From the NCBI GenBank assembly GCA_025350305.1, contig JANXYC010000278.1, positions 1 to 56,674 on the forward strand: a stretch of 56,674 bases of DNA, read 5' to 3'. Of the stretch, positions 8,846 to 52,525 are shown one piece after another. The DNA comes from Cyclobacteriaceae bacterium (GTDB lineage Bacteria > Bacteroidota > Bacteroidia > Cytophagales > Cyclobacteriaceae). The position numbers were made by a program, and so were the translations under genes. The notes below the pieces were generated by a model. That model had not been told where the DNA came from and searched no databases. It worked only from the letters and a program-made list of their open reading frames with translations. Numbering within the stretch: position 1 is the stretch's first letter; every line of letters starts with the position of its first letter.

Positions 8846-9213
8846 GGCTTTTTCTTTTTTAGATTCTTAAGGTGTTTCATGAGGTTATCAATGTCGTTGA
8901 TATCCATTTTATTTTCAGAAGCGAAGAAAGAGACTAAATTTTGGAATGATCCACCGAAATATCCCTTCACCAAATTGTTGAGATAAAACCCGGTGTATTT
9001 TTCTTTCGCGATGAGCGGAAAGTATTCATGGGTTTTGCCATACGCCTTGTATCCCACAAATCCCTTCTTCTCCAAAATCCGGACGATGGTGGATACCGTA
9101 TTATAGGCAGGCTTTGGAGACGGAAGTTCGTCGACAATGTCTTTGACAAATCCCTTTTTCAAGCGCCAAAGAATTTGCATGATCTGACTTTCGGCACGGG
9201 TAAGTTCTTTCAT
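8842..9213 (-). CDS. BlaI/MecI/CopY family transcriptional repressor
   Basis: Repressor of 123 residues with the family's N-terminal winged helix (LTRAESQIMQILW, then PAYNTVSTIVRILEKKGFV) and a C-terminal dimerisation segment (about 75-123). In the well-studied systems the partner M56 protease cleaves the repressor and releases the operator. It is the first gene of a two-gene operon with that protease, overlapping by 4 nt. A 16-nt inverted repeat overlapping the promoter lies just upstream and is the probable autoregulatory operator. No beta-lactamase gene is adjacent, so a role in antibiotic resistance should not be assumed. Confidence 0.93.
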   Translation of the reverse strand: MKELTRAESQIMQILWRLKKGFVKDIVDELPSPKPAYNTVSTIVRILEKKGFVGYKAYGKTHEYFPLIAKEKYTGFYLNNLVKGYFGGSFQNLVSFFASENKMDINDIDNLMKHLKNLKKKKP

Positions 9214-22686: not shown

Positions 22687-23886
22687 ATGAACATAAGTCA
22701 AGAGAAGTTAGACGTTAAAAATAAAACCCGGGCAAATCTATTTAACTGGAGGGGTCAATTTACCCCAGAATTTGTTGAATATATTTTGGAGAACTTCTCA
22801 TGTAAAGGGAACTTAATTCTCGATCCTTTTTCTGGAAGCGGCACGGTTCTATCGGAATCAGCAAGCAAGGGTTTGGAGTGCTATGGCTACGAAATTAATC
22901 CAGCTGCTTATTTGATGTCTAAATTCTTTAGCTTTTCAAACCTGAAACCTGAGCGCCGAATAAAGTTTCTTCAAAGAGTTGAATTGGCCCTAAGTACTGA
23001 GCTTAAAATCCTAAATGGACAACCGGTTTACCAGGAAAATTCGGACTATAGATCAGCTTATAAAAACCTTCTAAACTTTGGTAAGAAATTAATTAAGTAC
23101 ACTGATAACGAAGATGAAAAAATATTCTTGTTAAACTTACTCTTTCTTTCAGAAAGGGATAAAGAACTGAAATTAAAGGACTCTGTCTTAAAGTCGTTTA
23201 GCTACTTAAAAAAATCATTGCTTGGTCTACCGTGTGCCGAAAAAATCATAGACGCAAAACTTCAAGATGCCCGCACAGTTAGTAAGAATTTTGTCAGAGC
23301 AATAGATTTGATAATCACGAGTCCACCTTACATTAATGTCTTTAATTACCATCAGAATTATAGAGGCATCATCGAAATTTTTGGATATGATTCGCTGAAA
23401 GTGGCCGAATCTGAGTTTGGCTCCAATCGCAAGAATAGAGGAAATAGATTTAGGACAGTTATTCAGTATTGTTTGGATATGGAACAATCTCTAAATAGTT
23501 TTTGGCATGCACTTAAGGTAGGAGGCAAGATGGTCATTGTTGTTGGACGTAAATCGAATGTTCGCAAAACCCCATTTTATAATGGAAGTATTGTCCAAGA
23601 AATATTGTCCAAAATGCAAGGATTTAAGCCGATTGAGAACTTAGAACGATCATTTACAAATAAATTTGGAGAAGTGATTAAAGAGGACATTCTAGTTGTC
23701 TCTAAAGCCGATTATAAAGTTGATTTTGAGATTGGGAAAAGCGTGGCAGAAAAACATTTGGAACAGGCCTTGGTAACGAGTAATGACGATTCAATTATTT
23801 TAGATCTCCGAGATGCAATTGAAAACATAAATGCGATAGAGCCATCTCCTTTATTTAGTCCAAAAAGTATATTTAATGGCAAATAA
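22687..23886 (+). CDS. Restriction-modification system DNA methyltransferase (TSPPY type)
   Basis: DNA methyltransferase of 399 residues. Motif I (SAM-binding) is DPFSGSGTV, preceded by the motif X-like NWRGQFTPEFVEYIL and followed by an acidic GYEINPAA. Motif IV is TSPPY, which points to cytosine-N4 (or possibly adenine-N6) methylation. Motif I comes before motif IV with about 160 residues between them, a region that should hold target recognition. The gene overlaps the next one by 11 nt, so the two are translationally linked. The block is more A+T-rich than its neighbours, suggesting horizontal acquisition. Target sequence cannot be read from the protein. Confidence 0.9.
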   Translation: MNISQEKLDVKNKTRANLFNWRGQFTPEFVEYILENFSCKGNLILDPFSGSGTVLSESASKGLECYGYEINPAAYLMSKFFSFSNLKPERRIKFLQRVELALSTELKILNGQPVYQENSDYRSAYKNLLNFGKKLIKYTDNEDEKIFLLNLLFLSERDKELKLKDSVLKSFSYLKKSLLGLPCAEKIIDAKLQDARTVSKNFVRAIDLIITSPPYINVFNYHQNYRGIIEIFGYDSLKVAESEFGSNRKNRGNRFRTVIQYCLDMEQSLNSFWHALKVGGKMVIVVGRKSNVRKTPFYNGSIVQEILSKMQGFKPIENLERSFTNKFGEVIKEDILVVSKADYKVDFEIGKSVAEKHLEQALVTSNDDSIILDLRDAIENINAIEPSPLFSPKSIFNGK

Positions 23887-24769
23887 TACTCCTCACAAGG
23901 AAAAGCTTTTGGCGGCAATCGAAAATCCAAAGGCCAGACAGGATCTTGATATTCTTCGAGAGGCATTTGCCGGATATGAAGCATGGATCAAGAAATTGGA
24001 ACAACTCAAAACTACTGGTATCGATAGGATTAATGAGATGACAAATCTTCTCAATCAATATAAAGATTTTTTAGAGGTCGATTTAATAGCAAGCAAAGGT
24101 TCAGATTTTTTGAAAAGACAAAAGGGACAATTAAAACTTGATAACAGTATACTCGAAGAGTTTCTAATCTATCTCGTGTCCCCTGCAGTATTAGGTAATC
24201 TCCCTAATTTCGAATTAGAAAAAGGACCACAAACAGCCTTCATGTCGTTTGCTTTTAGACCTTCTCACATAAGAAATCTGAATGAAGGCCCCGAGGTAGT
24301 TTTAAAGGTTAAGGACCAAGATTTTACTATTGGTAAAACTTTCTATTACAAATTCTCTCCAGATGACTCATTTCCAGAGCAAAAGACCACGATAGGTAAG
24401 CTTTTTTTGGCAGTTCTTGCCGCTGAGTGTAAAGTGAATTATGATAAGACAATGTTTCAAGAGTGCGCCGGAACGGCAGCCAGACTTAAACACGGATGTC
24501 CAATTTCAAAATACTACGCATTAATTGAATATCTGGATATGCAACCAGAGGATACAAGGTTAACTGAAATAGATAACGTTTTCTTGCTCAGAAAAGCAAA
24601 AAGGCTTCCATTCGAAAAGAGGAGTGTCTTAAATGAGATAAAAGCTCAGCGGAGCGATTTCCCCATCCAAGCAGATGTAATTTCAAATTTCGTAAAGGAA
24701 ATTCAGAATTTTCTTGATGCAACTTGGTACAATGCGGAGGAGGCACTAAGAAGGGGATCTTTTGTATAA
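23876..24769 (+). CDS. Probable type II restriction endonuclease (Bpu10I-like)
   Basis: Protein of 297 residues immediately downstream of, and overlapping, the methyltransferase. The N-terminal third is helical. A likely PD-(D/E)xK half-motif is E184-C-K186 (AAECKVNYDKTMFQECAG), preceded by acidic residues in the region 150-175. The stretch YDKTMFQECAGTAARLKHG and KYYALIEYLDM resembles the Bpu10I family of endonucleases as I remember it. Bpu10I itself cuts an asymmetric site as a heterodimer, but only one endonuclease gene is seen here. It converges on dapA with only 9 nt between stop codons. Family assignment is moderate; the role as restriction partner is strongly supported by context. Confidence 0.7.
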   Translation: MANNTPHKEKLLAAIENPKARQDLDILREAFAGYEAWIKKLEQLKTTGIDRINEMTNLLNQYKDFLEVDLIASKGSDFLKRQKGQLKLDNSILEEFLIYLVSPAVLGNLPNFELEKGPQTAFMSFAFRPSHIRNLNEGPEVVLKVKDQDFTIGKTFYYKFSPDDSFPEQKTTIGKLFLAVLAAECKVNYDKTMFQECAGTAARLKHGCPISKYYALIEYLDMQPEDTRLTEIDNVFLLRKAKRLPFEKRSVLNEIKAQRSDFPIQADVISNFVKEIQNFLDATWYNAEEALRRGSFV

Positions 24770-38694: not shown

Positions 38695-40065
38695 ATGAGA
38701 ATAAATCAAATTCTACTCCTACTCTTTATTTTGGTGAGCCCGGTTGGATGCCGGAATGAAAAAGTCCAAACGACCCAAAATGATGTCTTTCTCGATTCTT
38801 TGTCGAAGGACACGTTTCACTACTTCTGGGATTTGGCGAATCCTGAAAACGGATTGATCCCGGACCGGTGGCCCACTCCCGGTTTTTCGAGTATTGCATC
38901 CACAGGATTTGGATTGACATCCTATCTGATAGGAGTGGAGCGTGGGTACATCACGCGGGAGCAAGCGGCATTGCGGGTTCTGACAACACTGCGTTTTTTT
39001 TACCAGGCTCCAAAAGGGGACAGTGTAGCGGGCGTAACGGGCAATCATGGGTTCTTCTATCACTTTATCGATATGAACACAGGTTTGCGATTTCGGCAAG
39101 TAGAACTTTCTACCATTGATACAGGATTGCTTATCGCGGGAATACTTTCCTGCCAGACCTACTTTGATGAAGAAAATGAAACGGAAAATGAAATCCGGAC
39201 GTTGGCCGACAATCTTTACAAGGGCGTGGAATGGGATTGGGCGATGAACGGAAAAGAAACAATGAGTATGGGGTGGCATCCGGAAAGGGGATTTCTAAAT
39301 GCCTCCTGGCAAGGGTATAACGAAGGAATGATCCTCTATATAATGGGTTTGGCATCACCCACGCACCCGATTAATTCGGGGACCTGGACGGGATGGACAA
39401 AAACATACCAATGGGCAACCTACTATGATCAGAAACATGTGAATTTCGGTCCGCTCTTTGGGCATCAATATTCGCACATGTTCATTGACTACCGCGGGAT
39501 AAAAGATGCCTTCATGAATCAAAAGGGAATAGACTATTTTGAAAATTCAAGAAGGGCTACGTATGCCAACCGTCAATATTGTATTTCAAATCCTGGTGGG
39601 TGGATCGACTATGGAGCGAACATGTGGGGTCTTACAGCCTGTGATGGACCCGGCAACGAGTTTAATTCCAATCCGAATATATCGTATATGGGTTATAGCG
39701 CGCGCGGGGCGGCCCAATGGTACACCCAAGACGACGGCACCATTGCCCCCACAGCAGCGGGCGGATCCATCCCCTTTGCTCCGGAAATCTGCATTGCAGC
39801 CCTGAAGGAAATGAATAGGAAATTGGGTGACAAGCTGTATGGAAAGTATGGCTTTAAAGATGCTTTCAATTCGTCGATAATAAACAAAGACGGTACCAGG
39901 GGTTGGATCGACAATGACTACATTGGGATTGACCAGGGCCCCATTGTTATCCAGATTGAAAATTATAGAAACGGATTTGTCTGGGGGCTTATGAAAAAAA
40001 ATCCATATATAATTGACGGTTTAAAAAAGGCTGGATTCAAAGGTGGATGGATTGAAAAATATTGA
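38695..40065 (+). CDS. GH144-like glycoside hydrolase (glycoamylase-fold) lipoprotein
   Basis: Lipoprotein glycosidase of 456 residues with a signal peptide and lipobox (VSPVGC, Cys at about 19). The rest is one (alpha/alpha)6-barrel domain of the glycoamylase type (Pfam PF10091), now classed largely as GH144. Conserved segments are FHYFWDLANPENGL, STGFGLTSYLIGVERGYI, VELSTIDTGLLIAG, WGLTACDGPG and the closing IGIDQGPIVIQIENYRNGF. GH144 includes endo-beta-1,2-glucanases, founded on a Chitinophaga enzyme, so hydrolysis of beta-1,2-glucan is the best guess. It is the first gene of the locus and is followed 4 nt later by the receptor gene. Confidence 0.88.
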   Translation: MRINQILLLLFILVSPVGCRNEKVQTTQNDVFLDSLSKDTFHYFWDLANPENGLIPDRWPTPGFSSIASTGFGLTSYLIGVERGYITREQAALRVLTTLRFFYQAPKGDSVAGVTGNHGFFYHFIDMNTGLRFRQVELSTIDTGLLIAGILSCQTYFDEENETENEIRTLADNLYKGVEWDWAMNGKETMSMGWHPERGFLNASWQGYNEGMILYIMGLASPTHPINSGTWTGWTKTYQWATYYDQKHVNFGPLFGHQYSHMFIDYRGIKDAFMNQKGIDYFENSRRATYANRQYCISNPGGWIDYGANMWGLTACDGPGNEFNSNPNISYMGYSARGAAQWYTQDDGTIAPTAAGGSIPFAPEICIAALKEMNRKLGDKLYGKYGFKDAFNSSIINKDGTRGWIDNDYIGIDQGPIVIQIENYRNGFVWGLMKKNPYIIDGLKKAGFKGGWIEKY

Positions 40066-40069
40066 TGTG

Positions 40070-41980
40070 ATGAGCCGAACGTTGCTTGTCCTGCTGTTTT
40101 CATGCACGGCTGCTCCAGCGTTCAATCAGGTACTGACAATCGATGAGAATACGGACGAGAAAATCCTGTACCTGCACGAATTGGAATATCTGGTTGACTC
40201 GACGAATACGCTTGCCTTCCCCGAGATTTCAGGCTCATTATTCAGAGAAAAATTTGAGCGAAATGATTCGTATCAAAACAAGAACTTTCTTGTTAATGTT
40301 TCTTATTGGATAAGGATTCCTATTCATCACATTCCGGAAGCAAAAAAGGTCTGGCTCCTTGAATTTTACGACCAGACAATCGACTACATCGATGCATTTG
40401 TTCCGACGGAGGAAGGGGCCTATTCCCATCTGAAAATGGGGGATCATTATCCCTTTACGCAACGTACCTTTCTTCATAAGAATTTCGAAGTCCAACTGGA
40501 CATGCGCAAGGACACCACGGTGTCGTACTACTTCAGAGTAAGATCGCATGAATTTGCCGATATCCGAATAGCCTTCCGGTCGGAGAACAGGTTTATCTAC
40601 TATGCGCTAAATGAGTATTTCCTTTACGGAACATTTTACGGAATGATCTTCATCATTGCCTTGTACAACTTTCTGGTGTATCTGGCGATTCGTGAGATTA
40701 AGAATATCTATTACATTTTATACATCCTCAGTGTTGGTTTTTATGCATTGAGTCTTGACGGCATCGGCTTTCAATACCTCTGGCCCCATCATCCTGAATG
40801 GAATGACTATGCCATCGGGATATCGCTCTATTCGGTTATACTGTGGGCGTTGATTTTTACCAGGAGGTTTCTCAGCACCCGGGCAAAATCCCCGCATTTG
40901 GACAGAATGTTGAAGCTGATGATTGCTGCCCGTTCTGCTGTTTTTGTTTTCGAATTAATCTTTTATCCCGAATTTTTCACCTATCGAGTGATCGAAATCA
41001 TTCCACTCTCGCTTATTTTTTATACAGGCATAAAGGTCTGGATGAGGGGCTACCGGCCAGCTAGATTTTTTGTTATTGCTTATGGATTATTGCTTGCTGG
41101 TTTTTTGTTAAGGAGCCTTGTCTATTTTAATATTTTGTCTATTACAACTATTTCACACTATAGTCTTCATTTCAGTTTTGTAATTGAGATGCTCTTTCTG
41201 ACGTTCGCACTTGGTGACCGGATCAGAATTTTAAAGAACAACCGTGATCGGGCGTTGAAAAGAATAATTTATCAGAATGAGATTAATCTACAATTGAAAG
41301 ATAAGGTCAACCGTGAACTGGAAGAGAAAGTGGGGGAGCGCACTGTTGAGTTGAACGCCATGAATAGCGAACTGGCGGAGAGTAATCAAAAACTGATGGT
41401 GCAATCCGGTGAGATCAATCAGATAAATTCGCTTTTGGACCTTGACAACTGGAAGCTGAAGAATAAAGTAAAGGAAGTTCTCGAAGAGCGATTACACGAG
41501 ACGGCCATGAGGTATGATGAATTTAAAACGCTGTATGCGGATACACTCGCCTGCCACCGCTTCCTGGAGACATTGAAATGGGCGAATGGTTTTCATTGCA
41601 AGCGATGCGGTAACGAAAAATATTTCGCGGGGGCCCAGAAATTTGGAAGGCGCTGTACCCGTTGTGGATACAATGAGTCTATCACCTCCTATACGATATT
41701 TCACGGAATCAAATTTTCCATCGAGAAAGCATTTTATATTGCCTATGTGGCAGTCATTGGGAAAAAGGAAATTACCCTGGAGTGGCTCGCTTCAAAAGTT
41801 GACCTGAGGATAAACACCGTTTGGAGTTTCCGGCGAAAGGCCATCGAACGCATAAAAGAGCTCGAGGAAAATGGCAGAAGACCTACGGCTAATCGCTGGG
41901 AGGAGGTTGTACTATTTAGGGAGAATGAGACCAGGCCAGGACTTAAAAAGCCCAAGACGATGGGCCGGGACAAGGCTTGA
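40070..41980 (+). CDS. 7TMR-DISM receptor fused to an IS1595-transposase-like zinc ribbon
   Basis: Membrane receptor of 636 residues with an unusual domain order. A signal peptide (about 1-20) precedes an extracytoplasmic beta domain like 7TMR-DISMED2 (about 25-170), seven transmembrane helices (about 180-390) and a cytoplasmic coiled coil (about 395-490). The end is a four-cysteine zinc ribbon (C510, C513, C529, C532) followed by SYTIFHGIKFSIEKAFYIAY and a helical segment LEWLASKVDLRINTVWSF. That tail closely matches the N-terminal DNA-binding part of IS1595-family transposases but has no DDE nuclease. The start at 40070 follows the GH144 stop by 4 nt; an upstream in-frame ATG at 40043 overlaps that gene. 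It is the only regulator-like gene in the locus, placed directly before susC. Function is inferred. Confidence 0.85.
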   Translation: MSRTLLVLLFSCTAAPAFNQVLTIDENTDEKILYLHELEYLVDSTNTLAFPEISGSLFREKFERNDSYQNKNFLVNVSYWIRIPIHHIPEAKKVWLLEFYDQTIDYIDAFVPTEEGAYSHLKMGDHYPFTQRTFLHKNFEVQLDMRKDTTVSYYFRVRSHEFADIRIAFRSENRFIYYALNEYFLYGTFYGMIFIIALYNFLVYLAIREIKNIYYILYILSVGFYALSLDGIGFQYLWPHHPEWNDYAIGISLYSVILWALIFTRRFLSTRAKSPHLDRMLKLMIAARSAVFVFELIFYPEFFTYRVIEIIPLSLIFYTGIKVWMRGYRPARFFVIAYGLLLAGFLLRSLVYFNILSITTISHYSLHFSFVIEMLFLTFALGDRIRILKNNRDRALKRIIYQNEINLQLKDKVNRELEEKVGERTVELNAMNSELAESNQKLMVQSGEINQINSLLDLDNWKLKNKVKEVLEERLHETAMRYDEFKTLYADTLACHRFLETLKWANGFHCKRCGNEKYFAGAQKFGRRCTRCGYNESITSYTIFHGIKFSIEKAFYIAYVAVIGKKEITLEWLASKVDLRINTVWSFRRKAIERIKELEENGRRPTANRWEEVVLFRENETRPGLKKPKTMGRDKA

Positions 41981-42298
41981 TTGACTCCCTATTAAGATCG
42001 CGATTAATACTTTGTTTTTAATCAGCAAAGTTAAGCAAATGATTTCTTCAAAAATGCTGCACAACCGTTTGAATCAATGTTTTTAAAGCGCTAAAATAAC
42101 TTGTTTACAACCGGTATATTGCCCCCGTATTTCGTCGATTTAATCAAAAATATTCTCGTTTAAACTTGACTTAACTGTAAATTCAGGTAGGCATATAAGC
42201 ACTGGCCAGTATAGTGTCTAAATTTTTTCTTTCAGTATGAGTAAAGAATTGTTAATCAATGTCTTACCCAAGGGTGCAACTCAATTTAGAACAGGCTT
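41981..42298 (+). promoter_or_regulatory. 318-nt leader and probable regulatory region of susC
   Basis: No gene of normal size lies here. It contains a weak inverted repeat ACTTTG/CAAAGT (about 42009-42031), which may end the receptor transcript, and A+T-rich sequence expected of the susC promoter. TAAATTTT (42219-42226) is a one-mismatch -7 candidate without a clear -33. A short open frame of 26 codons begins at 42237 (MSKELLINVLPKGATQFRTG and on) and overlaps the susC start by 19 nt in another frame. It may be a leader peptide or chance. Confidence 0.4.
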
Positions 42299-45200
42299 AT
42301 GTATAAGACTTTACTGACCACTTGTTTTTTCCTTTTATTAACTGCTTTCGTGATGGCCCAAACCCGTACGATCAAAGGCAAAGTTACCTCAGCCGAAGAC
42401 AATCAGTCTCTTCCCGGTGTTAATGTGCTTGTCACGGGCACTACCAAAGGAACCGTCACAGATGTGGAAGGGGCTTATTCACTTGATTTGCAGACAGGCG
42501 AAACCGCCATTAGCTTTTCTTTCATTGGTTACAAAACACAAACTATTGAAGTAAGTGCCCGCACTACCATTGATGTTGTTCTTCAGGTTGATGCCGAAAT
42601 ACTGGATGAGGTGGTGGTTGTGGGGTATGGGGTTCAAAAAAAGAGCGACCTCACCGGTGCGATATCATCTGTTAAGGAATCGGATATTACCAGGATACCT
42701 TCTTTCAACGCGGCGCAATCGCTGCAAGGGAAAGTGGCGGGAGTTCAAGTATTTAATTCATCCGGACAACCTGGTGCTTTGCCGATTATACGGGTACGTG
42801 GTGTTGGAACATTCAATAATTCGTCACCAATCTATGTCGTTGACGGTGTGATATTGGATGATATCTCCTTTTTAAATGCCGCGGATATTCAGTCCATGGA
42901 AGTTTTGAAAGATGCATCGTCTACTGCCATTTTTGGATCGCGTGGTGCGAATGGCGTCATCATTGTGACTACGAAACTTGGAAAAGCAGGACAAGAGAAG
43001 ACGGTAGTCTCTGTGAGTAGTGAATACAGTGTTCAGCAAGTAGGGAAAACGATTGATCTGCTGAATGGTAAAGATTTTGGAGCAATCACCAATGAAATAC
43101 TGCCCAATACGTATAACAATCTGAGTGCATTGCCTAACACCGATTGGCAAAAGCTGATATTTCGAAATGCGCCTATCCAAAATTATCAGATATCCATCAG
43201 TGGCGCCTCACCCAAGTCCCAATTCTATTTTGGTGTGGGCTATTTCAATCAGCAAGGGATCATTCCTAAATCAAGTTATGAAAGGATTACCTTAAAGTTC
43301 AATAACACCTATACACTTTCCAAGAGTGTAAAACTTGGTAACAACATCACGCTAGCCCCTTTTCAACAACAAGTTGCTCCTGATGTGGTGTATTCCGCGT
43401 ATCGAGCCCAGCCATTGAGAGTTCCTTATTATAATGACGGCACATTTGGTGCAGTTCCAAATGTTGGTAACCCGTTGGCTCAGCTTGCTTATTCCAATAA
43501 CTTTAATAAAGGGCTACGGTTAGTAGGAAATGTTTTTGCCGACGTCACCTTCCTAAAAGATTTTCTTTTTCATTCCAGTTTTGGTGCGGACTTACAGTTT
43601 AACAAGAGCAACGACTTTACGCCGGCGTATACAGTTTTCAATCCTGATGGCACACCCAATCAGCAGCAAAACCTGCTGAGTTCCCTGGGGAAAGGATCTT
43701 CAAATTCGTCAACTTGGATTTGGGAAAACACCGTCACGTTTAATAAACAGATCGGAGACCACCGTATTAATATTCTCGGTGGATACACCATGCAGGAAAC
43801 TTCAAATGAATTTTTAAATATTCGTGGAAGTAATATCATACGCGATCTGCCAGAGTTGAGATATTTGAACAATCCGCTTTATTTTTATGACCCAACAAGT
43901 AATCCAGTTGTTAATAACTTGGCCAGTATCAATAATGGCGTCGATGCGAATCTGTACTATTCCTTGATCTCCTATTTGTTCCGCGTCAATTATACGTTAA
44001 AGGATAAGTACCTGTTTACGGCCTCCTTCAGAAGAGACGGTTCAACCAAATTTTCCAAGGCTAACCGTTTTGGAAACTTTCCCTCGGTTGCGGTTGGGTG
44101 GAATACCATGAATGAAAAATTTATGCAAGACGTCAAGTTCCTTACCAACCTTAAAGTGAGGGCAAGCTGGGGAGCCATTGGAAACGAGAAAATTAATTAT
44201 CTGAAACAGTATTCTCTCGTTACCGCAAACGGTGCAACGAGCCCGGTATTCGGGAAGGGTAACAACCTGAATTCGGGCGCCACCTTTGATGTGAGTGGCA
44301 ACCCAAACCTGATATGGGAAACAACCTATCAAACTGATATTGGCCTGGAGGTTGGTTTTTTAAACAATCGGCTAACGGGTGAATTTGATTATTTCAACAA
44401 GCAGACAAAAGACATTCTCGTGCCGTTGCGCACCCAGGGTTATTTTGGAAATGGGAACGGCGCACTGATTACGGTTAACGCAGGTACTGTACTGAACAGA
44501 GGCTTCGAGTTTAATGTTGCATGGCAGGATGAGGTCAAAGGCGTAAAATATAGAATTGCATTTTTAGGAAATACCCTGCACAATGAAGTGCTCGCTGTCG
44601 GCGGCACAAAAGGAATTGACTCAACGCTGGTAGGAGGTTTTCTGGGCAGTGGTCAGCCTGCGACGCTCAGCAGGGTAGGCCTTCCTATCGGCTCGTTTTA
44701 TGGATTTAAGACCAACGGTGTTTTCCAAAATGATGCGGAGCTTAAAGCATATCCACATGATTCAAATGCCGGTGTAGGTGATCTTCGGATTGTTGATGTT
44801 AACAAAGATGGAAAGATCACGGATGCCGACCGAACGTACATTGGCTCTCCGATTCCAACTTTTATTTATGGATTTAATTTTCAAGTTGGATGGAAGGGCA
44901 TTGAACTTACCACCGATTTCCAGGGCCAGTACGGAAACCAAATCTTAAATGGTAAAGAAATCGTCCGACCCGACCCGTACAATTTTGAAAAACATGTAAT
45001 CAACCGGTGGACAGGAGAGGGAACTTCTGCCACCGAGCCGCGCGCTTCTTTTGGTGGATATAACTATTCAATTTCTGACCGCTTTATCCAAAGCGGGGCG
45101 TATATTAGACTCCGGAGTTTAACATTGGCGTACTCGTTGCCAACTGCATGGCTTCAGAAAGTGACACTAAAGAATGTGAAGATTTACGTCCGAGGCACCA

Positions 45201-45334
45201 ATTTATTTACAAAATCAAGTTTTACGGGGTATTCACCGGATTTTGGAAGCGGTGACGTATTGTCAAACAATATCGACAACGGTACCTACCCCGTGGCTAA
45301 AGTATATTCTGTTGGACTCAATGTCACTTTTTAA
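42299..45334 (+). CDS. susC: SusC/RagA family TonB-dependent outer membrane transporter
   Basis: SusC-type glycan importer of 1011 residues. The signal peptide ends near FVMAQ. A carboxypeptidase-regulatory-like domain (about 22-105, RTIKGKVTSAEDNQSLPGVN) precedes the plug domain (VVGYGVQKKSDLTGAISSV, then VRGVGTFNNSSPIYVVDGV) and a 22-strand barrel ending with VAKVYSVGLNVTF, whose terminal aromatic is the barrel-assembly signal. It forms a complex with the SusD protein encoded 9 nt downstream and imports oligosaccharides across the outer membrane. There is no N-terminal extension for a FecR-type sigma regulator, which fits the unusual receptor upstream. Confidence 0.97.
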   Translation: MYKTLLTTCFFLLLTAFVMAQTRTIKGKVTSAEDNQSLPGVNVLVTGTTKGTVTDVEGAYSLDLQTGETAISFSFIGYKTQTIEVSARTTIDVVLQVDAEILDEVVVVGYGVQKKSDLTGAISSVKESDITRIPSFNAAQSLQGKVAGVQVFNSSGQPGALPIIRVRGVGTFNNSSPIYVVDGVILDDISFLNAADIQSMEVLKDASSTAIFGSRGANGVIIVTTKLGKAGQEKTVVSVSSEYSVQQVGKTIDLLNGKDFGAITNEILPNTYNNLSALPNTDWQKLIFRNAPIQNYQISISGASPKSQFYFGVGYFNQQGIIPKSSYERITLKFNNTYTLSKSVKLGNNITLAPFQQQVAPDVVYSAYRAQPLRVPYYNDGTFGAVPNVGNPLAQLAYSNNFNKGLRLVGNVFADVTFLKDFLFHSSFGADLQFNKSNDFTPAYTVFNPDGTPNQQQNLLSSLGKGSSNSSTWIWENTVTFNKQIGDHRINILGGYTMQETSNEFLNIRGSNIIRDLPELRYLNNPLYFYDPTSNPVVNNLASINNGVDANLYYSLISYLFRVNYTLKDKYLFTASFRRDGSTKFSKANRFGNFPSVAVGWNTMNEKFMQDVKFLTNLKVRASWGAIGNEKINYLKQYSLVTANGATSPVFGKGNNLNSGATFDVSGNPNLIWETTYQTDIGLEVGFLNNRLTGEFDYFNKQTKDILVPLRTQGYFGNGNGALITVNAGTVLNRGFEFNVAWQDEVKGVKYRIAFLGNTLHNEVLAVGGTKGIDSTLVGGFLGSGQPATLSRVGLPIGSFYGFKTNGVFQNDAELKAYPHDSNAGVGDLRIVDVNKDGKITDADRTYIGSPIPTFIYGFNFQVGWKGIELTTDFQGQYGNQILNGKEIVRPDPYNFEKHVINRWTGEGTSATEPRASFGGYNYSISDRFIQSGAYIRLRSLTLAYSLPTAWLQKVTLKNVKIYVRGTNLFTKSSFTGYSPDFGSGDVLSNNIDNGTYPVAKVYSVGLNVTF

Positions 45335-45343
45335 TTTTTCCAT

Positions 45344-46846
45344 ATGAGAAATTTTAGAAAAAATACATTCAAGAACACAAGTCGGTTCGTTCTGCTAGCT
45401 TTATTTATTTCCGTTGGGTGCCAGGACTTTCTTGATAAGAAACCACAGGGACAATTATTGCAAGCATCGTTTCCGGTTTCTGCAAGTGACGCGCTCCTCG
45501 TCGACAACGCAGCATATGCCTCCCTCCGGAATTGGTACTTTCATTCAGGTGGGTATCCTATTTTGGATATCATGTCCGATGATGCCCGCAAGGGGAGTAG
45601 CCCGGCGGATCAACTAAACACAATTGGTCCTTACGACAATTTCACCATCAACACCAAGCAAGACGGGCTGGACCGCTGGTGGAGTGCAGCCTACCAAAGT
45701 ATCAGGAGTGCCAATGTGGTGATCAAGTATGTTCCCACAATTACCATGAGTGACTCGATGAAGAATCAGTATTTGGCAGAGGCGAAGTTCTTGAGAGGCC
45801 TTGTTTATTTTGATTTGGTGAGGGCCTGGGGTGGCATACCGCTGGTAACGACTCCAGATCCGCCTCTGGGATTGGGTAATGCTACAGCCGATGAAATTTA
45901 TGCCCAGATAATTGAGGATCTGAATTTTGCGGTTGCGCACCTCCCTAAGCAAAGTGCTTATTCTCCCAGCAATCTGGGCCGTGCTACTCAAGGGGCAGCC
46001 AATGCGTACCTCGCCAAAGCCTACCTTTTCAGGAAAGATTATGTCAATGCCGAGAAGTATGCGCTGGAGGTAATTAATTCCGGACAATATTCCCTGGAAC
46101 CAAATTTTAATAATGCGAATGGACTGGCTGGCAACTTTGGAGTAGAATCCATTTTTGAAATTGGGGCTCTTCCAAATGATGGTAATGAAAATGGCGGTGA
46201 CCAGTACGCGAACACGCAAGGGATAAGAGGTTCACCAAATCGTGGCTGGGGCTTCAACCGTCCCTCCATCAACCTAATAGATTCTTTCGAACCAAATGAT
46301 CCCCGCAAAGATGCGACTGTAATATTTCTCGGAGAAGTACTCGATGGCGTTCCAACAGTGGGCGATGCAACATGTCCGGATACAACCAAAGTGAACGGTG
46401 TCATCATCGAGATAGAATGTTACAACCAAAAGATCTGGGTGCCCGGAAATAGTATAAGTTCCGAATGGGGACATCACCGTCGTCTGATGCGGTACGCCGA
46501 TGTTTTGTTGATGGAGGCAGAGGCATCAAATCAAAATGAAAAGACTGCGCAGGCCTTGATTTATCTGAATAAGATCCGGCTACGTGCACGCGGGGGAAAC
46601 TTGGCAATACTCCCGGACATTACGGAAACCAATCAAGGGTTACTACGGGACATAATTTTGAATGAACGAAGACACGAATTGGCAATGGAAGGTCACCGGT
46701 TTTGGGATTTAGTGCGAACCGGTAAGGCCGCGGAAGTATTAAGTCCGTTGGGTTATACGAGCAGGTATGACCTGCTACCGATACCTCAGACCCAGCTTGA
46801 TCTTTCACAAGGGCGCTTAAAGCAAAATACAGGATGGAATAATTAG
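45344..46846 (+). CDS. susD: RagB/SusD family surface lipoprotein
   Basis: SusD-like glycan-binding lipoprotein of 500 residues. The signal peptide ends in a lipobox (SVGC) followed by QDFLDKKPQGQ, typical of the family. Segments NQYLAEAKFLRGLVYFDLVR, WGGIPLVTT and AYLAKAYLFRKDYVNAEKYA (TPR-like helices) and the C-terminal NERRHELAMEGHRFWDLVRTG are diagnostic. It covers the extracellular face of the SusC pore and binds the substrate. Exact ligand is unknown; the neighbouring GH144 and GH3 genes suggest a beta-glucan. Confidence 0.97.
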   Translation: MRNFRKNTFKNTSRFVLLALFISVGCQDFLDKKPQGQLLQASFPVSASDALLVDNAAYASLRNWYFHSGGYPILDIMSDDARKGSSPADQLNTIGPYDNFTINTKQDGLDRWWSAAYQSIRSANVVIKYVPTITMSDSMKNQYLAEAKFLRGLVYFDLVRAWGGIPLVTTPDPPLGLGNATADEIYAQIIEDLNFAVAHLPKQSAYSPSNLGRATQGAANAYLAKAYLFRKDYVNAEKYALEVINSGQYSLEPNFNNANGLAGNFGVESIFEIGALPNDGNENGGDQYANTQGIRGSPNRGWGFNRPSINLIDSFEPNDPRKDATVIFLGEVLDGVPTVGDATCPDTTKVNGVIIEIECYNQKIWVPGNSISSEWGHHRRLMRYADVLLMEAEASNQNEKTAQALIYLNKIRLRARGGNLAILPDITETNQGLLRDIILNERRHELAMEGHRFWDLVRTGKAAEVLSPLGYTSRYDLLPIPQTQLDLSQGRLKQNTGWNN

Positions 46847-46911: not shown

Positions 46912-48183
46912 ATGAAAAAAGTAAAATTAATTCTGACAATGGTTCTGGCGGCCGGGATGGTCGCTGTGTTCCTGGAGAGTTGTAAGAAAGACGCTGCGGC
47001 CCCAAGCCCGTTGAAGCTGGTAAGTCTGAAGACTGGGGATGGTACAGCATTGGATGGCGCTACAGCAGCCACGGGTATCGCTACAAATGCAACAGTTGTC
47101 GCAATATTTGATAAGGAAATTGATCCAACAACGGCCACGATAACCAATATTGCGCTCGTAGTAGGAGGTGCTGCAGTACCCAGTACGGTTACAACGAGCG
47201 GTGTTACTGTAACAATTGCACCATCAGCTGTTTTAGCAACCGGTACCAATTACACTGTTTCTGTTGCTCCCACACTGAAGGCAAAGGATGGCGGTCCCGC
47301 GACCTCAACTGAATTTACGTTCAAAACATTCGGACGCGCGAATGTTGTTCCTCCGCAATCTGCCAGTCAACTTTCTTATTTTCCTTTCACAGGAAACATG
47401 AATGATGAAGTTGGAACCCACACACCGGTAACGGCAGATGTTAAGAATTTGGCATTTGTTGCTGACAGGTTTGGGTTTGCAGGCTTAGCCGGTGACTTCA
47501 ATGGTACAACAACGCTCGTTGAAATTCCAAATGGTGAGCAGTACCTGGCCAACAATGACTTTACCCTGAGCTTCTGGATCAAAGCCAATTCAACCAAGAA
47601 TGGCCAATTTGTATTGGGACTTGGTGCATGGAAAGGATTTCAATTTGAAATTGCAGGCGATTGGGCATGGGTTAAGTTAGCCAGCCAGTATAACGAAGGT
47701 GGCACGGCTGCCGATTCAGAGGATAACTTCTTTCCTGGAACTGGTGAAACAAAGGATAATACAGGATGGCAAGGTTGGACCTTCAACAAAGATGTACTAC
47801 CTCATGGTGGAGGTATAGGGACTACGTACTTCAAAGACAAGTGGTGTCATGTGATATGCACGTATCAGGCATCTACTAAACTTGCTACCATGTACCTGAA
47901 TGGAGAAAAAGTGAAACAACACGATTTCAACTTATGGCCAACTGGCGATGCGAAAAGAAACATTACCGGTGTGAAATTTGCAGGTAATTTAACAGGCGGC
48001 GGAAATAAACTGGCCCTTGGTTTTATCCAGGGAAGCTTAAACCGGATTATTAATGATACCTGGGCAGATCCTGCAGATCCTTTGAACAATCATTTCAAAG
48101 GTGTTATGGATGATGTACGCATTTTCAAAGTGGCGCTAACTGCTTCGGAGGTCACAACACTTTATACAGCAGAAAAACCTTAG
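46912..48183 (+). CDS. LamG-domain lipoprotein, probable surface glycan-binding protein
   Basis: Lipoprotein of 423 residues (lipobox LESC). An SbsA/Big_5-like Ig domain spans about 35-145 (ATNATVVAIFDKEIDPTTAT). A LamG/concanavalin-like domain follows (about 150-420), with LSYFPFTGNMNDEVG, NDFTLSFWIKAN, KWCHVICTYQ and MDDVRIFKVALTASEV. It sits directly after susD, the usual place of surface glycan-binding proteins in such loci, and probably helps capture the polysaccharide. No catalytic motif was seen. A strong terminator follows. Confidence 0.88.
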   Translation: MKKVKLILTMVLAAGMVAVFLESCKKDAAAPSPLKLVSLKTGDGTALDGATAATGIATNATVVAIFDKEIDPTTATITNIALVVGGAAVPSTVTTSGVTVTIAPSAVLATGTNYTVSVAPTLKAKDGGPATSTEFTFKTFGRANVVPPQSASQLSYFPFTGNMNDEVGTHTPVTADVKNLAFVADRFGFAGLAGDFNGTTTLVEIPNGEQYLANNDFTLSFWIKANSTKNGQFVLGLGAWKGFQFEIAGDWAWVKLASQYNEGGTAADSEDNFFPGTGETKDNTGWQGWTFNKDVLPHGGGIGTTYFKDKWCHVICTYQASTKLATMYLNGEKVKQHDFNLWPTGDAKRNITGVKFAGNLTGGGNKLALGFIQGSLNRIINDTWADPADPLNNHFKGVMDDVRIFKVALTASEVTTLYTAEKP

Positions 48184-48291: not shown

Positions 48292-50268
48292 ATGAAGCCG
48301 TTTATTTATTCCCTGCTCTTTGCTTTATTGATCGGACTTATAAGCTGTAATAAGTCCGATTCACAAAAAACGACTTCTCAAAAACTTCAAATAACCGGCG
48401 GTCAGATTGGATCTTTCAACCTCAACACCACGGATTTTACAAAAAATACGGGCGTTACAACTGATCAGCCAATCGTCATTAGTTTTTCATTCATTCTGGA
48501 TATAACTACGGTCACCGCTTCTTCTTTTACAGTATCACAAGGAGGCAGCCTGGTCGATCTTGATTTTGCATTTATCGATAATAACAAAACCATTTCGGCG
48601 CGACCGAAACAAAATCTTCTGAACAGTCAAAAATATACCCTGACGCTCACCAATGCAATTAAAGGGTCTTCAGGGGAACAATTTCCTGGAACTTTGATTG
48701 AATTCACCACTGCAACTCCGCCACTTCAAATTATTTCATTGAAAATTGGAAATCAATCTGTTCCACCTTCCGGCAACATCACCGATGTTCCATTGACGAA
48801 CCTGTTAGTTGAAATAAATTTTTCTTCCCCTGTAAATGCAGCATCCATAACGAGCCAAAACGTACAAATTATAGGTCCTAATAACCCGACCATTTCATTT
48901 TCCCTTCAGGATTCAGACAAGAAATTATTGATAACTGTCGGACAACCACTTCAGCATTTTACCCGACACCGCGTATATCTTTCAGATCAGGTGCGTGGCA
49001 AAAACGGCGAGCCATTTGTAGTCTATGTTCGGGAATTTTTTACAGCGATTGACCCAACGCCAAAATACCCCGTAGTTTCCGACAATACTTTGCTCACGCT
49101 TGTTCAACAGCAAACGTTTAAATATTTCTGGGATTTTGGTCATCCTGCATCTGGTCTGGCGCGCGAACGTGACACGTCTGGTGATTTGATAACTACAGGC
49201 GGTTCAGGTTTCGGCCTGATGGCAATCATCGTAGGAATGGAGCGTGGTTTCATAACCCGCCCGGATGGCGTACTCCGCCTGAAGAAAATCGTAACGTTTC
49301 TTGAAACGGCTAACCGCTTTCATGGAGCCTGGCCTCACTGGATGAACGGGAATTCGGGTAGTGTAATTCCTTTTGGCACCAAAGACGACGGCGGTGACCT
49401 GGTTGAAACCTCCTTCCTGGTTCAAGGCCTTCTTACCTTCCGCCAATATTTACTGCCGGCCGATACGGTTGGTAATAATCTCATCAGACGGATCACAAAA
49501 CTGTACGAAACAGTAGAGTGGGATTGGTATCGCAAAAATGGGAACAATGTTCTTTACTGGCATTGGTCGCCCACGTATCAATGGGATCTGAACTTTGCAT
49601 TATCTGGCTACTTTGAAGAGCAGATCACGTATTTTTTAGCTGCCGCCTCGCCAACACATTCAATACCGAAAAGTGTATATACGAATGGCTTTGCAAAGAA
49701 TGGAACAATTGTGAAGAACAACACCTTCTACGGATATACATTACCGCTGGAAAGCCCGTCTCCGCTGTTCTGGGTGCATTATTCCTACCTCGGGCTCAAT
49801 CCTCATTTCTCAGATGACTATGCCAACTATTGGACTCAAAATGTAAACGCCAGTTTGATCAACCATGCTTATTGTGTGGCAAACCCCAGGAACTGGGTAG
49901 GTTATAGCGATGAGTGTTGGGGACTTACTGCGAGCGATAATCAAACCGGATACTCAGCTCATTCACCCGGCAATGACCTCGGTGTGATCGCGCCAACTGC
50001 TGCACTATCTTCCTTTCCTTATACTCCTGTAGAATCAATGAAAGCACTAAAGTTTTTTTATTACACAATCGGGGATAAGACCTGGGGAACATATGGTTTC
50101 TATGATGCCTTTAACACAACAGCAGGGTGGTATGCCAATTCCTACCTGGCCATCGACCAGGGGCCGATCATTGTGATGATTGAAAATTACAGGACGGGTT
50201 TGCTATGGAATCTTTTTATGTCGTCGCCGGAGGTACAGCCAGCCATGACCAAGCTCAATTTCAATTGA
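48292..50268 (+). CDS. GH144-like hydrolase with two N-terminal Ig-like domains
   Basis: Lipoprotein of 658 residues (lipobox LISC). Two Big_5/SbsA-like Ig domains (about 30-145 and 150-250) precede a glycoamylase-type (alpha/alpha)6 domain (about 265-655) related to the first GH144 gene of the locus. Shared signatures are FKYFWDFGHPASGL, GSGFGLMAIIVGMERGFI, LVETSFLVQGLL and LAIDQGPIIVMIENYRTG. The Ig domains probably space the catalytic domain from the membrane or bind glycan. Substrate is inferred as beta-1,2-glucan from the family. Confidence 0.88.
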   Translation: MKPFIYSLLFALLIGLISCNKSDSQKTTSQKLQITGGQIGSFNLNTTDFTKNTGVTTDQPIVISFSFILDITTVTASSFTVSQGGSLVDLDFAFIDNNKTISARPKQNLLNSQKYTLTLTNAIKGSSGEQFPGTLIEFTTATPPLQIISLKIGNQSVPPSGNITDVPLTNLLVEINFSSPVNAASITSQNVQIIGPNNPTISFSLQDSDKKLLITVGQPLQHFTRHRVYLSDQVRGKNGEPFVVYVREFFTAIDPTPKYPVVSDNTLLTLVQQQTFKYFWDFGHPASGLARERDTSGDLITTGGSGFGLMAIIVGMERGFITRPDGVLRLKKIVTFLETANRFHGAWPHWMNGNSGSVIPFGTKDDGGDLVETSFLVQGLLTFRQYLLPADTVGNNLIRRITKLYETVEWDWYRKNGNNVLYWHWSPTYQWDLNFALSGYFEEQITYFLAAASPTHSIPKSVYTNGFAKNGTIVKNNTFYGYTLPLESPSPLFWVHYSYLGLNPHFSDDYANYWTQNVNASLINHAYCVANPRNWVGYSDECWGLTASDNQTGYSAHSPGNDLGVIAPTAALSSFPYTPVESMKALKFFYYTIGDKTWGTYGFYDAFNTTAGWYANSYLAIDQGPIIVMIENYRTGLLWNLFMSSPEVQPAMTKLNFN

Positions 50269-50293: not shown

Positions 50294-52525
50294 ATGCAAA
50301 AATTCCTTACGCTCATTTGCCTGGTGGCGCTGTTGACCGCATGCAGTAAAGAAAATCAAACCAATCGTGTTGATTCAAGAATTGACTCCCTCATCAACGT
50401 GATGACCCTGGAAGAAAAGGTAGGCCAACTTTCGCTATACACCAGTGATTGGGATGTTACCGGCCCCACCATGCGACAAGGTTATAAAGAGGATATAAAA
50501 AAAGGACGGGTTGGCGCCATTTTTAATGCGTTCACGGCTAAGTACACACGCGAACTTCAGGAGATGGCGGTGAAAGAAACCCGTCTGCACATTCCCTTGA
50601 TTTTTGGTTACGACGTGATACATGGCCACCGAACCATTTTCCCAATTCCACTCGGTGCTGCTGCCAGCTGGGACATGGAAGCCATTGAAAAGTCGGATCG
50701 AATAGCCGCCGAAGAGGCTTCTGCTGAAGGATTGCATTGGGCCTTTTCTCCAATGTTGGATATTGCGAGGGACCCTCGTTGGGGTAGAATAGCCGAAGGT
50801 GCAGGGGAGGATACCTATCTCGGTTCTCGAATTGCGGAGGCACGCGTCCGGGGATTGCAAGGAAAGGGCGTCGGTGAATTGAACTCGGTCATGGCGTGTG
50901 TCAAACATTTTGCGGCGTATGGTGCCGCGCAGGCCGGCCGTGATTATCACACAGTGGACATGTCGGACAGAATGTTTCGTGAAGTTTACCTTCCTCCCTA
51001 TGCAGCAGCAATAAAAGCTGGCGCCGCCACGGTGATGTCTTCTTTCAATGAATTTGATGGTGTACCAGCTTCCGGCAGTAAATATTTAATGACCGATTTG
51101 CTTCGTGGGGAATTGAAGTTCAATGGATTTGTCGTCAGCGACTACACTTCCATTATGGAAATGATTCCACACGGTGTAGTAGCAGATACTGCTTCTGCTG
51201 CAGCGCTCGCCCTGGAGGCAGGTGTGGACATGGACATGCAGGCGGGCTTTTACGAGGAAGCGCTTGGTAAACTGGTAAAAAAGGGTACGATCAATGAACA
51301 ATTAATTAATACCTCTGTAAGAAGAATTCTTAAAAAGAAATTTGAACTGGGTTTGTTTGATGATCCGTATCGCTACAGCGATGTCGAACGTGAGAAAAAT
51401 ACGGTGATGAAGCTTGAGTTTCTGGAAGCTGCACGCGACGTGGCGAGGAAGTCCATTGTCCTCCTAAAAAATGGCCAGTTGCCGAGACAGGAAAAACTGT
51501 TGTTACCCTTATCGAAAGAGGTAAAACAGCTTGCCGTAATCGGACCCCTGGCCGATGCCAGGAAAGAAATGATAGGATCGTGGTCCGCTGCCGGCGATTG
51601 GAAAAAATCCGTTACGTTACTGGAGGGTATTAAGGCAGCCGTTTCCCCGAAGACCAATGTACTCTTTGCCAGGGGCTGCAACATCAGTGATGATTCAACC
51701 ACCTATTTCGCTGAAGCTGTGCGAGTCGCTGATAAGGCGGATGTAGTGGTGCTGGCACTTGGTGAGGGAGCCTGGATGACAGGCGAAGCAGCCAGCCGCG
51801 CGTCACTCGCATTACCTGGAGTGCAACAAAAGCTGGTCGAGGAAATAGCTAAAACCGGCAAACCCATTGTTGTCGTATTGATGAATGGCCGCCCACTCAC
51901 TATCAACTGGATTGCGGGGCACATTCCTGCAATTCTGGAAACTTGGTTCCTCGGCACCCAGGCAGGCAATGCAATCGCGGATGTATTGTTTGGTGATTTC
52001 AATCCTTCCGGGAAACTGCCGGTTACATTCCCCCGTTCGGTGGGCCAGATACCGATTTTTTATAATATGAAAAATACGGGACGTCCTATGGATCGCAACA
52101 ATAAGTACACATCAAAATATCTGGACGAGGAAAATGAACCACTTTACCCATTTGGTTTCGGACTTAGCTATACCACCTTTGAATACGGCGCAATCAAACT
52201 ACTGAAAGAGCATATTACCACACAAGATGAACTTACGGTATTATGCAAGGTAACGAATACAGGTACCAGGGCAGGTGAGGAAGTGGTGCAACTATATGTA
52301 AGAGACCTTATTGGATCGGTGACCAGGCCGGTGAAAGAGCTTAAGAAGTTTCAAAAAATCACGCTGCAACCGGGAGAGTCCAGGGAGGTGTCATTTACGT
52401 TATCTATACAAGACCTGGCGTTTTACCGATCGAATATGAGCTTCGGTACTGAGCCAGGAGACTTTCACGTTTTTATAGGCGGTAATTCGCGCGACACGAA
52501 GGCCGCTAAATTTGTGTTGGATTAA
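50294..52525 (+). CDS. bglX: GH3 family beta-glucosidase (BglX-like) lipoprotein
   Basis: GH3 glycosidase of 743 residues with a lipobox near the N-terminus (LLTAC). The (beta/alpha)8 domain shows IPLIFGYDVIHGHRTIFPIP, LDIARDPRWGRIAEGAGEDTY and KHFAAYGA. The nucleophile is D283 in FVVSDYTS. The alpha/beta sandwich (about 390-600) and C-terminal fibronectin III-like domain (TGTRAGEEVVQLYVRDL) follow. It releases glucose from the non-reducing end of beta-glucan oligosaccharides, and is expected in the periplasm or at the outer membrane. The lactonase-like gene follows with only 3 nt between. Confidence 0.95.
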   Translation: MQKFLTLICLVALLTACSKENQTNRVDSRIDSLINVMTLEEKVGQLSLYTSDWDVTGPTMRQGYKEDIKKGRVGAIFNAFTAKYTRELQEMAVKETRLHIPLIFGYDVIHGHRTIFPIPLGAAASWDMEAIEKSDRIAAEEASAEGLHWAFSPMLDIARDPRWGRIAEGAGEDTYLGSRIAEARVRGLQGKGVGELNSVMACVKHFAAYGAAQAGRDYHTVDMSDRMFREVYLPPYAAAIKAGAATVMSSFNEFDGVPASGSKYLMTDLLRGELKFNGFVVSDYTSIMEMIPHGVVADTASAAALALEAGVDMDMQAGFYEEALGKLVKKGTINEQLINTSVRRILKKKFELGLFDDPYRYSDVEREKNTVMKLEFLEAARDVARKSIVLLKNGQLPRQEKLLLPLSKEVKQLAVIGPLADARKEMIGSWSAAGDWKKSVTLLEGIKAAVSPKTNVLFARGCNISDDSTTYFAEAVRVADKADVVVLALGEGAWMTGEAASRASLALPGVQQKLVEEIAKTGKPIVVVLMNGRPLTINWIAGHIPAILETWFLGTQAGNAIADVLFGDFNPSGKLPVTFPRSVGQIPIFYNMKNTGRPMDRNNKYTSKYLDEENEPLYPFGFGLSYTTFEYGAIKLLKEHITTQDELTVLCKVTNTGTRAGEEVVQLYVRDLIGSVTRPVKELKKFQKITLQPGESREVSFTLSIQDLAFYRSNMSFGTEPGDFHVFIGGNSRDTKAAKFVLD

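Follow-up and report, generated by a model that had tools for sequence, protein, structure and literature searches.

Receptors of the 7TMR-DISM type usually end in a kinase, cyclase, or GGDEF output, and SusR is one type of PUL regulator. For Bacteroidota, accounts of PUL control usually center on HTCS and ECF/anti-sigma systems (PMC10766802). The main text of a survey of transmembrane transcription regulators counts 50,302 of them, with Bacteroidota among the enriched groups (PMC10269533); that main text contains neither "zinc" nor "transposase," the more than one hundred DNA-binding domains being placed in the supplementary tables. Our literature search, in which coverage of subscription journals was sparse, returned no paper on a fusion between a receptor and an IS1595-type domain, and the titles and opening abstract lines of publications on 7TMR-DISM proteins, the IS1595 zinc ribbon, and PF07695 gave no pointer to one (including PMC5342196, PMC1592074, and PMC8092284).

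Here, we describe such a fusion, encoded at positions 40070 to 41980 on the plus strand of a 56,674-nucleotide stretch of Cyclobacteriaceae DNA, hereafter the window. Like the 7TMR-DISM receptors of the RetS, SagS, and RgsP type, the protein carries the sensor and the seven-helix domain, both above their Pfam cut-offs, but its output is a DNA-binding domain. It also appears to resemble the membrane one-component regulators of the ToxR/CadC type in uniting sensor, membrane, and DNA-binding parts in one kinase-less chain, from which it differs by its seven-helix receptor and its IS1595-type domain. Its tail is homologous to the zinc ribbon and HTH of IS1595 transposases (PF12760 plus PF12762), but the DNA-binding part stands at the C terminus of a receptor and the catalytic domain is missing. 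Finally, as with the HTCS, SusR, and ECF/anti-sigma regulators of PULs, the gene lies beside susCD and glycosidase genes and is proposed to respond to a glycan, yet the protein shows no histidine kinase, receiver, or AraC-type HTH domain (Pfam, E up to 1) and no sigma or anti-sigma domain (Pfam). It would represent a conserved candidate PUL regulator of a different make, with a candidate operator, that is also present in cultured strains.

The regulator gene was delimited from its open reading frame, Pfam, alignment, and AlphaFold. It encodes 636 residues from an ATG at 40070, where a signal-peptide-like stretch begins; a GTG alternative gives 40043 to 41980. The signal peptide was called by eye and from the first helix of the AlphaFold model. 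It is followed by a periplasmic 7TMR-DISMED2 sensor domain (PF07696; residues 37–167, positions 40178–40570; E 5e-27, 95 bits against a cut-off of 22) and by the seven-transmembrane domain 7TMR-DISM_7TM (PF07695; residues 182–384, positions 40613–41221; E 1.5e-47, 162.6 bits against a cut-off of 29). The last membrane helix continues in the AlphaFold model as a long cytoplasmic helix (residues 359–471, positions 41144–41482), presumably a coiled-coil linker, and leads into the IS1595-type zinc ribbon and HTH. The whole model comprises a beta domain, seven membrane helices, and the single helix 359–471; its mean pLDDT was 83.0 and its pTM 0.60, with low confidence at residues 459–478. A Foldseek search with this model returned human WLS, a membrane protein with a beta domain, as the top match (E 4.3e-5) and the periplasmic domain of RetS (3jyb), which the sensor domain resembles, as the second (E 2.1e-4). 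A match of the sensor domain to CBM61 fell below significance (E 0.017), and phmmer with the full regulator against solved structures gave a single chance coiled-coil match (E 3.9). The genome of origin, a 4.2-Mb, 92%-complete assembly, holds one full-length copy. An original prediction, made from the sequence alone, had proposed this single-protein architecture, and the Pfam domains and AlphaFold models bear it out.

All genes discussed next lie on the plus strand. A PF10091 glycosidase gene (38695–40065, Pfam) ends 4 bases ahead of the regulator ATG. Downstream stand susC (42299–45334, Pfam and NCBIfam), the presumed target; susD (45344–46846, Pfam); a gene for a protein with Big_5 and laminin-G-like domains (46912–48183, Pfam); a second PF10091 glycosidase gene (48292–50268), whose closest solved structure is the endo-beta-1,2-glucanase 5gzh (E 5.9e-149); and a GH3 beta-glucosidase gene (50294–52525), whose second-best solved match is 5xxl (E 8.7e-238), an enzyme we take to act on beta-1,2-gluco-oligosaccharides. 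From these enzymes, we read the locus as one for beta-1,2-glucan, which is probably the substrate of the susC operon. The founding member of GH144 is the Chitinophaga pinensis enzyme (PMC12102758).

To follow this neighborhood across relatives, we used 80 long fusions, 79 of them from the best 80 of 469 loci confirmed with the tail profile and the eightieth that of the window itself. The immediate next gene on the same strand was susC in 69 of the 80, which upholds the predicted conservation beside SusC/D. Within the next seven same-strand genes, a span often cut by short contigs and by the 8-kb flank, we counted susC-like genes in 73/80 loci, susD in 64/80, PF10091-type glycosidases in 61/80, a LamG-like gene in 25/80, and GH3 in 8/80. 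The prediction had also seen no HTCS, SusR, or ECF/anti-sigma gene, and this holds for the 43 open reading frames of the window scanned with Pfam, 4 of which matched no family at the thresholds applied. Elsewhere in the window, a BlaR1-type peptidase with a TonB-like end is encoded with a BlaI-type repressor at 7322–9213, about 31 kb from the regulator, and a DNA methylase gene adjoins a Bpu10I-type restriction endonuclease gene at 22687–24769.

The gap between the regulator and susC contains a conserved and often doubled DNA box, newly described here. We gathered 114 such gaps, 94 of them distinct. Among the 84 whose regulators are at least 45% identical, TTTT-N7-AAAA was the commonest spaced word (56/84), while no dyad exceeded 26 in any of five shuffles. 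A box motif was fitted on 80 of the 84, and the fit on the 59 closest gaps gave the core AATCnATGTTTTTnnnnnGnnAAA. When both strands of the window were ranked by the box model, the best match was box 2 at 42066–42099 (CGTTTGAATCAATGTTTTTAAAGCGCTAAAATAA; plus strand, 32.9 bits) and the second was box 1 at 42001–42034, a weaker copy (13.7 bits) in the same direction 65 bp upstream. In self-comparisons, 37 of the 59 near-relative gaps had a direct second copy 65 or 66 bp away; the commonest offsets were 65 (22 gaps) and 66 (17 gaps), with 64 as runner-up (6 gaps). When box 2 was used to align 52 gaps, the mean box score peaked a second time at −66 (−8.1 bits) and −65 (−11.3 bits), against −23.2 bits at −67; below box 2 came an A-rich tract (+81 to +89) and a TTG (+101). 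In the window, the A-rich tract and a conserved TTG...TAAATT block occupy 42147–42186 on the plus strand, and from the sequence we presume this to be the susC promoter region.

We propose that the protein, tethered in the membrane, regulates transcription of the downstream susC-susD-GH144-GH3 operon as a one-component system, and we put the probability of this at about 0.8. Sequence comparison supplies the grounds, namely the conserved fusion, the homology of the tail, the linkage to susC, the doubled box, the specificity of that box, and its co-variation with regulator lineage. The periplasmic 7TMR-DISMED2 domain would meet a sugar freed from the glucan on which the operon acts, and the operon's enzymes suggest a beta-1,2-gluco-oligosaccharide as the ligand. 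A change would then be relayed inward through the seven-helix domain and the long helix to paired zinc-ribbon/HTH tails, which would bind the two direct boxes 65–66 bp apart and help the polymerase start at a susC promoter some 70 bp downstream of box 2. We infer DNA binding, dimerization, the ligand, the promoter, and activation over repression. The predicted action on susC now has in its favor a regulator-linked doubled box in 41981–42298, while its binding, ligand, and sign stand as proposals.

Activation is the likely sign. The same protein might instead repress susC until its ligand is bound, and boxes close to a promoter suit either sign. Box 2, however, is separated from the TTG block below it by about 70 bp, and box 1 comes another 65 bp upstream. 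Such upstream positions are commoner for activators, and we therefore count them against repression, which we hold to be unlikely.

A different explanation, which we find improbable, is that the box is an RNA or DNA element of the susC leader or promoter, unconnected with the neighboring regulator gene. The box usually lies in the gap that both genes share, and linkage alone cannot separate an element of susC from an operator. In one locus (L110), small genes part the regulator from susC and the box stands by susC, which such an element would explain and which fits an operator equally. We found no Rfam family matching the regulator–susC gap, which speaks against this explanation and led us to reject a known Rfam RNA.

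Several controls bear on the box itself. The motif fit on the 59 closest gaps reached an EM score of 1194, compared with 169–199 for six shuffled sets. In a two-fold held-out test, 28/29 and 25/30 gaps exceeded 99% of the null, and 28 and 21 exceeded its highest value. A 27-base box pattern allowing up to three mismatches had a single match in the genome of origin, at 42070–42096, and its reversed control had none. By our own count, a looser pattern gave 35 matches in 196 genomes, against 13 for the reversed control. Fourteen of the 35 fell in the 30 regulator-bearing genomes checked, which head the list of 116 genomes with a tail match, and all 14 adjoin the regulator tail match (13 within 206 bases, one at 1,679 bases). 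The other 16 of these 30 genomes had no match to this pattern, and the remaining 21 matches, in genomes outside the 30, were taken for background.

We also scanned the 80 long-fusion loci (79 from the best 80 of 469, plus the window) on both strands, 2.35 Mb with the strands added. Of the 60 matches of at least 20 bits, 59 lay between the regulator and susC; the exception, in L100, follows a pair of small genes similar to those of L110 at a contig end. A box of at least 20 bits occurred within 1.8 kb after the regulator in 53 of the 80 loci. The position of the box in the gaps is partly given by construction, since the model was trained on these gaps, a concern that the whole-genome and held-out tests answer only in part.

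The comparison of lineages also weighs against an element that belongs to susC. Relatives with 43–58% regulator identity carry a B box, TG-N-TATT-N-AAGCG-N2-ATA, which is related to the A box of the A-type relatives (regulator identity of 59% or more). Scored by leave-one-out models, 57/59 A-type gaps had the A box and 25/29 B-type gaps the B box, leaving two and four exceptions, respectively, to the rule that the box follows the clade. When the gaps were divided by SusC identity, the A-type fitted in 35/37 cases below 50% and in 22/22 at 50% or above; the B-type fitted in 21/23 below 50% and in only 4/6 at 50% or above. Box type had a rank correlation of 0.62 with regulator identity and 0.24 with SusC identity, values that include species kinship, and the A box was retained where SusC identity falls to 33–38%. 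As judged from these sequences, box type tracks the lineage of the regulator more than that of SusC, although shared species kinship could produce such a match between box and clade without any contact between protein and DNA.

Other groups of fusions have other flanks. Six paralogues that lie beside another susCD operon (group C: L074, L075, L077, L083, L084, and L087) all have two CGTATCA boxes, 78–81 bp apart. Because spacings of 65–66 and 78–81 bp differ by a non-whole number of helical turns, one fixed looped geometry is not favored. In the most distant group of 11 loci (L076, L078, L079, L081, L082, L085, L086, L088, and L090–L092; 27–30% identity), a motif search found no convincing common box on either flank; as susC is also never directly next on the same strand in these loci, their targets may be elsewhere. 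A search with a simple box template found nothing in the f2, f4, and f5 fusions.

The regulatory reading further requires that the tail be more than an inert or protein-binding leftover of a receptor that signals in another way. Zinc ribbons can in general bind protein or RNA as well as DNA, which would suit such a leftover. The zinc ribbon (Zn_ribbon_IS1595, PF12760; residues 494–534, positions 41549–41671 on the plus strand; Pfam and alignment) scored above its cut-off (E 9.7e-07; 29.1 bits against 25.4). Its cysteines C510, C513, C529, and C532, whose positions counted from the ATG had been predicted exactly, do not vary across the window protein and 47 relatives, and neither do K503, R528, T539, T569, and W585. 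AlphaFold and the profile comparison place three HTH-type helices, homologous to the N-terminal part of IS1595 transposases, at residues 551–600 (positions 41720–41869, plus strand). Zinc ribbon and HTH are thus kept together, most of the 48 aligned members have no other output domain, and a matching DNA box exists, all of which makes a leftover very improbable.

We compared a profile of 68 tails, including that of the window, with one of eight Bacteroidota IS1595 transposases; Pfam was run on five of the eight and found PF12760 and PF12762 in each. The two profiles aligned over 119 columns spanning the zinc ribbon and the HTH together (probability 99.5, E 1.8e-22), so that the resemblance to IS1595-type domains noted in the original prediction is significant by this measure and by the Pfam score. 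The NCBIfam IS1595 transposase model matched the HTH part weakly (E 0.021, far under its cut-off). The DDE catalytic domain PF12762 had no match in the regulator (Pfam, E up to 1) and was not one of the 10 families that Pfam reported for the 48 aligned members (E up to 0.01). Modeled as a separate piece of 183 residues, the tail formed a zinc-ribbon hairpin and three HTH-type helices, with a mean pLDDT of 82.9 and block averages of 87–96 over piece residues 31–150. Among solved structures, Foldseek found nothing for the tail at E 0.001 (best E 0.79), the nonsignificant top ranks including HTH regulators and NudC zinc ribbons; the tail profile gave weak matches alone, to ribosomal S27e and MarR-type proteins (best E 0.02).

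The fusion is widely conserved. Both 7TMR domains were present in 48/48 aligned members and the zinc ribbon in 47/48 (Pfam, E 0.01). A tail match was found in 116 of 196 genomes of the window's family group, a count that takes in transposases. Sixty loci from these 116 genomes, chosen beforehand for open frames of about 600 or more residues, encoded the fusion in 60/60 cases (600–681 residues). A less biased set came from the tail profile alone and comprised 80 named loci, the best 80 of 469 confirmed; 79 encoded a fusion of 552–703 residues, in agreement with the predicted presence of the fusion in homologues; the remaining one (L152) begins at a contig end. Because the same one-frame fusion recurs in separate records, at 79 of these 80 loci, and nothing was found in favor of an assembly or frameshift artifact that had merged a 7TMR gene with an insertion sequence, we reject that explanation as having a negligible chance of being right.

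Of 395 genomes drawn evenly from across the phylum, 56 had tail matches, and 11 rows were open frames of at least 600 residues, from four family groups. For each of the five fusions fetched from the three further family groups, a same-strand susC stood no more than three genes away; all five had both 7TMR domains, and the zinc ribbon was above its cut-off in three and weaker in two. Five distant fusions within the window's family group likewise had both 7TMR domains, their zinc ribbon being above the cut-off in one, weaker in two, and unreported in two (Pfam); the tail profile recovered all five, including the last two. Cultured, named strains with the fusion belong to Chryseolinea, Ohtaekwangia, Dawidia, Roseivirga, and others; Chryseolinea serpens DSM 24574 and Ohtaekwangia koreensis DSM 25262 are two that carry the same locus.

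We built a tree on 121 columns of IS1595-type DNA-binding domains, 72 of them fused and 39 not. A single branch set the fusions apart, with a support of 82 that was not starred; some branches of this tree are long. The neighbors of the fusions include transposases of the window's family group (L224–L226) with intact VEVDETYVGG and TD(G/C)W motifs. A single fusion event in Bacteroidota, from an IS1595 transposase lineage, is most likely on this tree, which favors it short of proof. If the protein acts as proposed, it would be a bacterial example of a transposase DNA-binding domain converted into a membrane-bound regulator, with relatives and paralogues numerous enough to trace the joint change of regulator and operator. 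Taken one step further, these proteins would be an additional class of PUL control in several Bacteroidota families, all going back to one event in which a 7TM receptor acquired the DNA-binding domain of an IS1595 transposase. A pair of receptors, like a transposase joining two ends, would hold direct boxes about six helical turns apart (seven and a half in the paralogue group) and loop promoter DNA at the membrane, each lineage having evolved its own box. We advance this combined picture tentatively, and in all its parts together we consider it doubtful.

One of the tree neighbors lies in a compact insertion sequence (L225:1353–2317) with the terminal repeat TTGAATAAGGCGTTTGTTAAAT. The ends of this element, TTGAATAAGGCGTTTGTTAAAT and its partner, share with the regulator boxes a loose TTG...GCG likeness with a spacing of 6 versus 8; we give this likeness no weight as evidence. 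A genome of another family group (G353) encodes 11 diverged IS1595-type proteins of about 305–335 residues, 10 of which were fetched (L203–L212). Their DNA-binding part is closely related, and in the five examined the catalytic DDE motifs are seemingly replaced (for instance by CEMGVN and TTSGW), so these may have become proteins of the host and no longer be active transposases. Stand-alone IS1595-type DNA-binding proteins were also seen, one of 137 residues in which Pfam reports the zinc ribbon alone (L213:1194–1607) and one of 185 residues (L214:7888–8445) whose gene follows susC-like and susD-like genes at a distance of a few genes.
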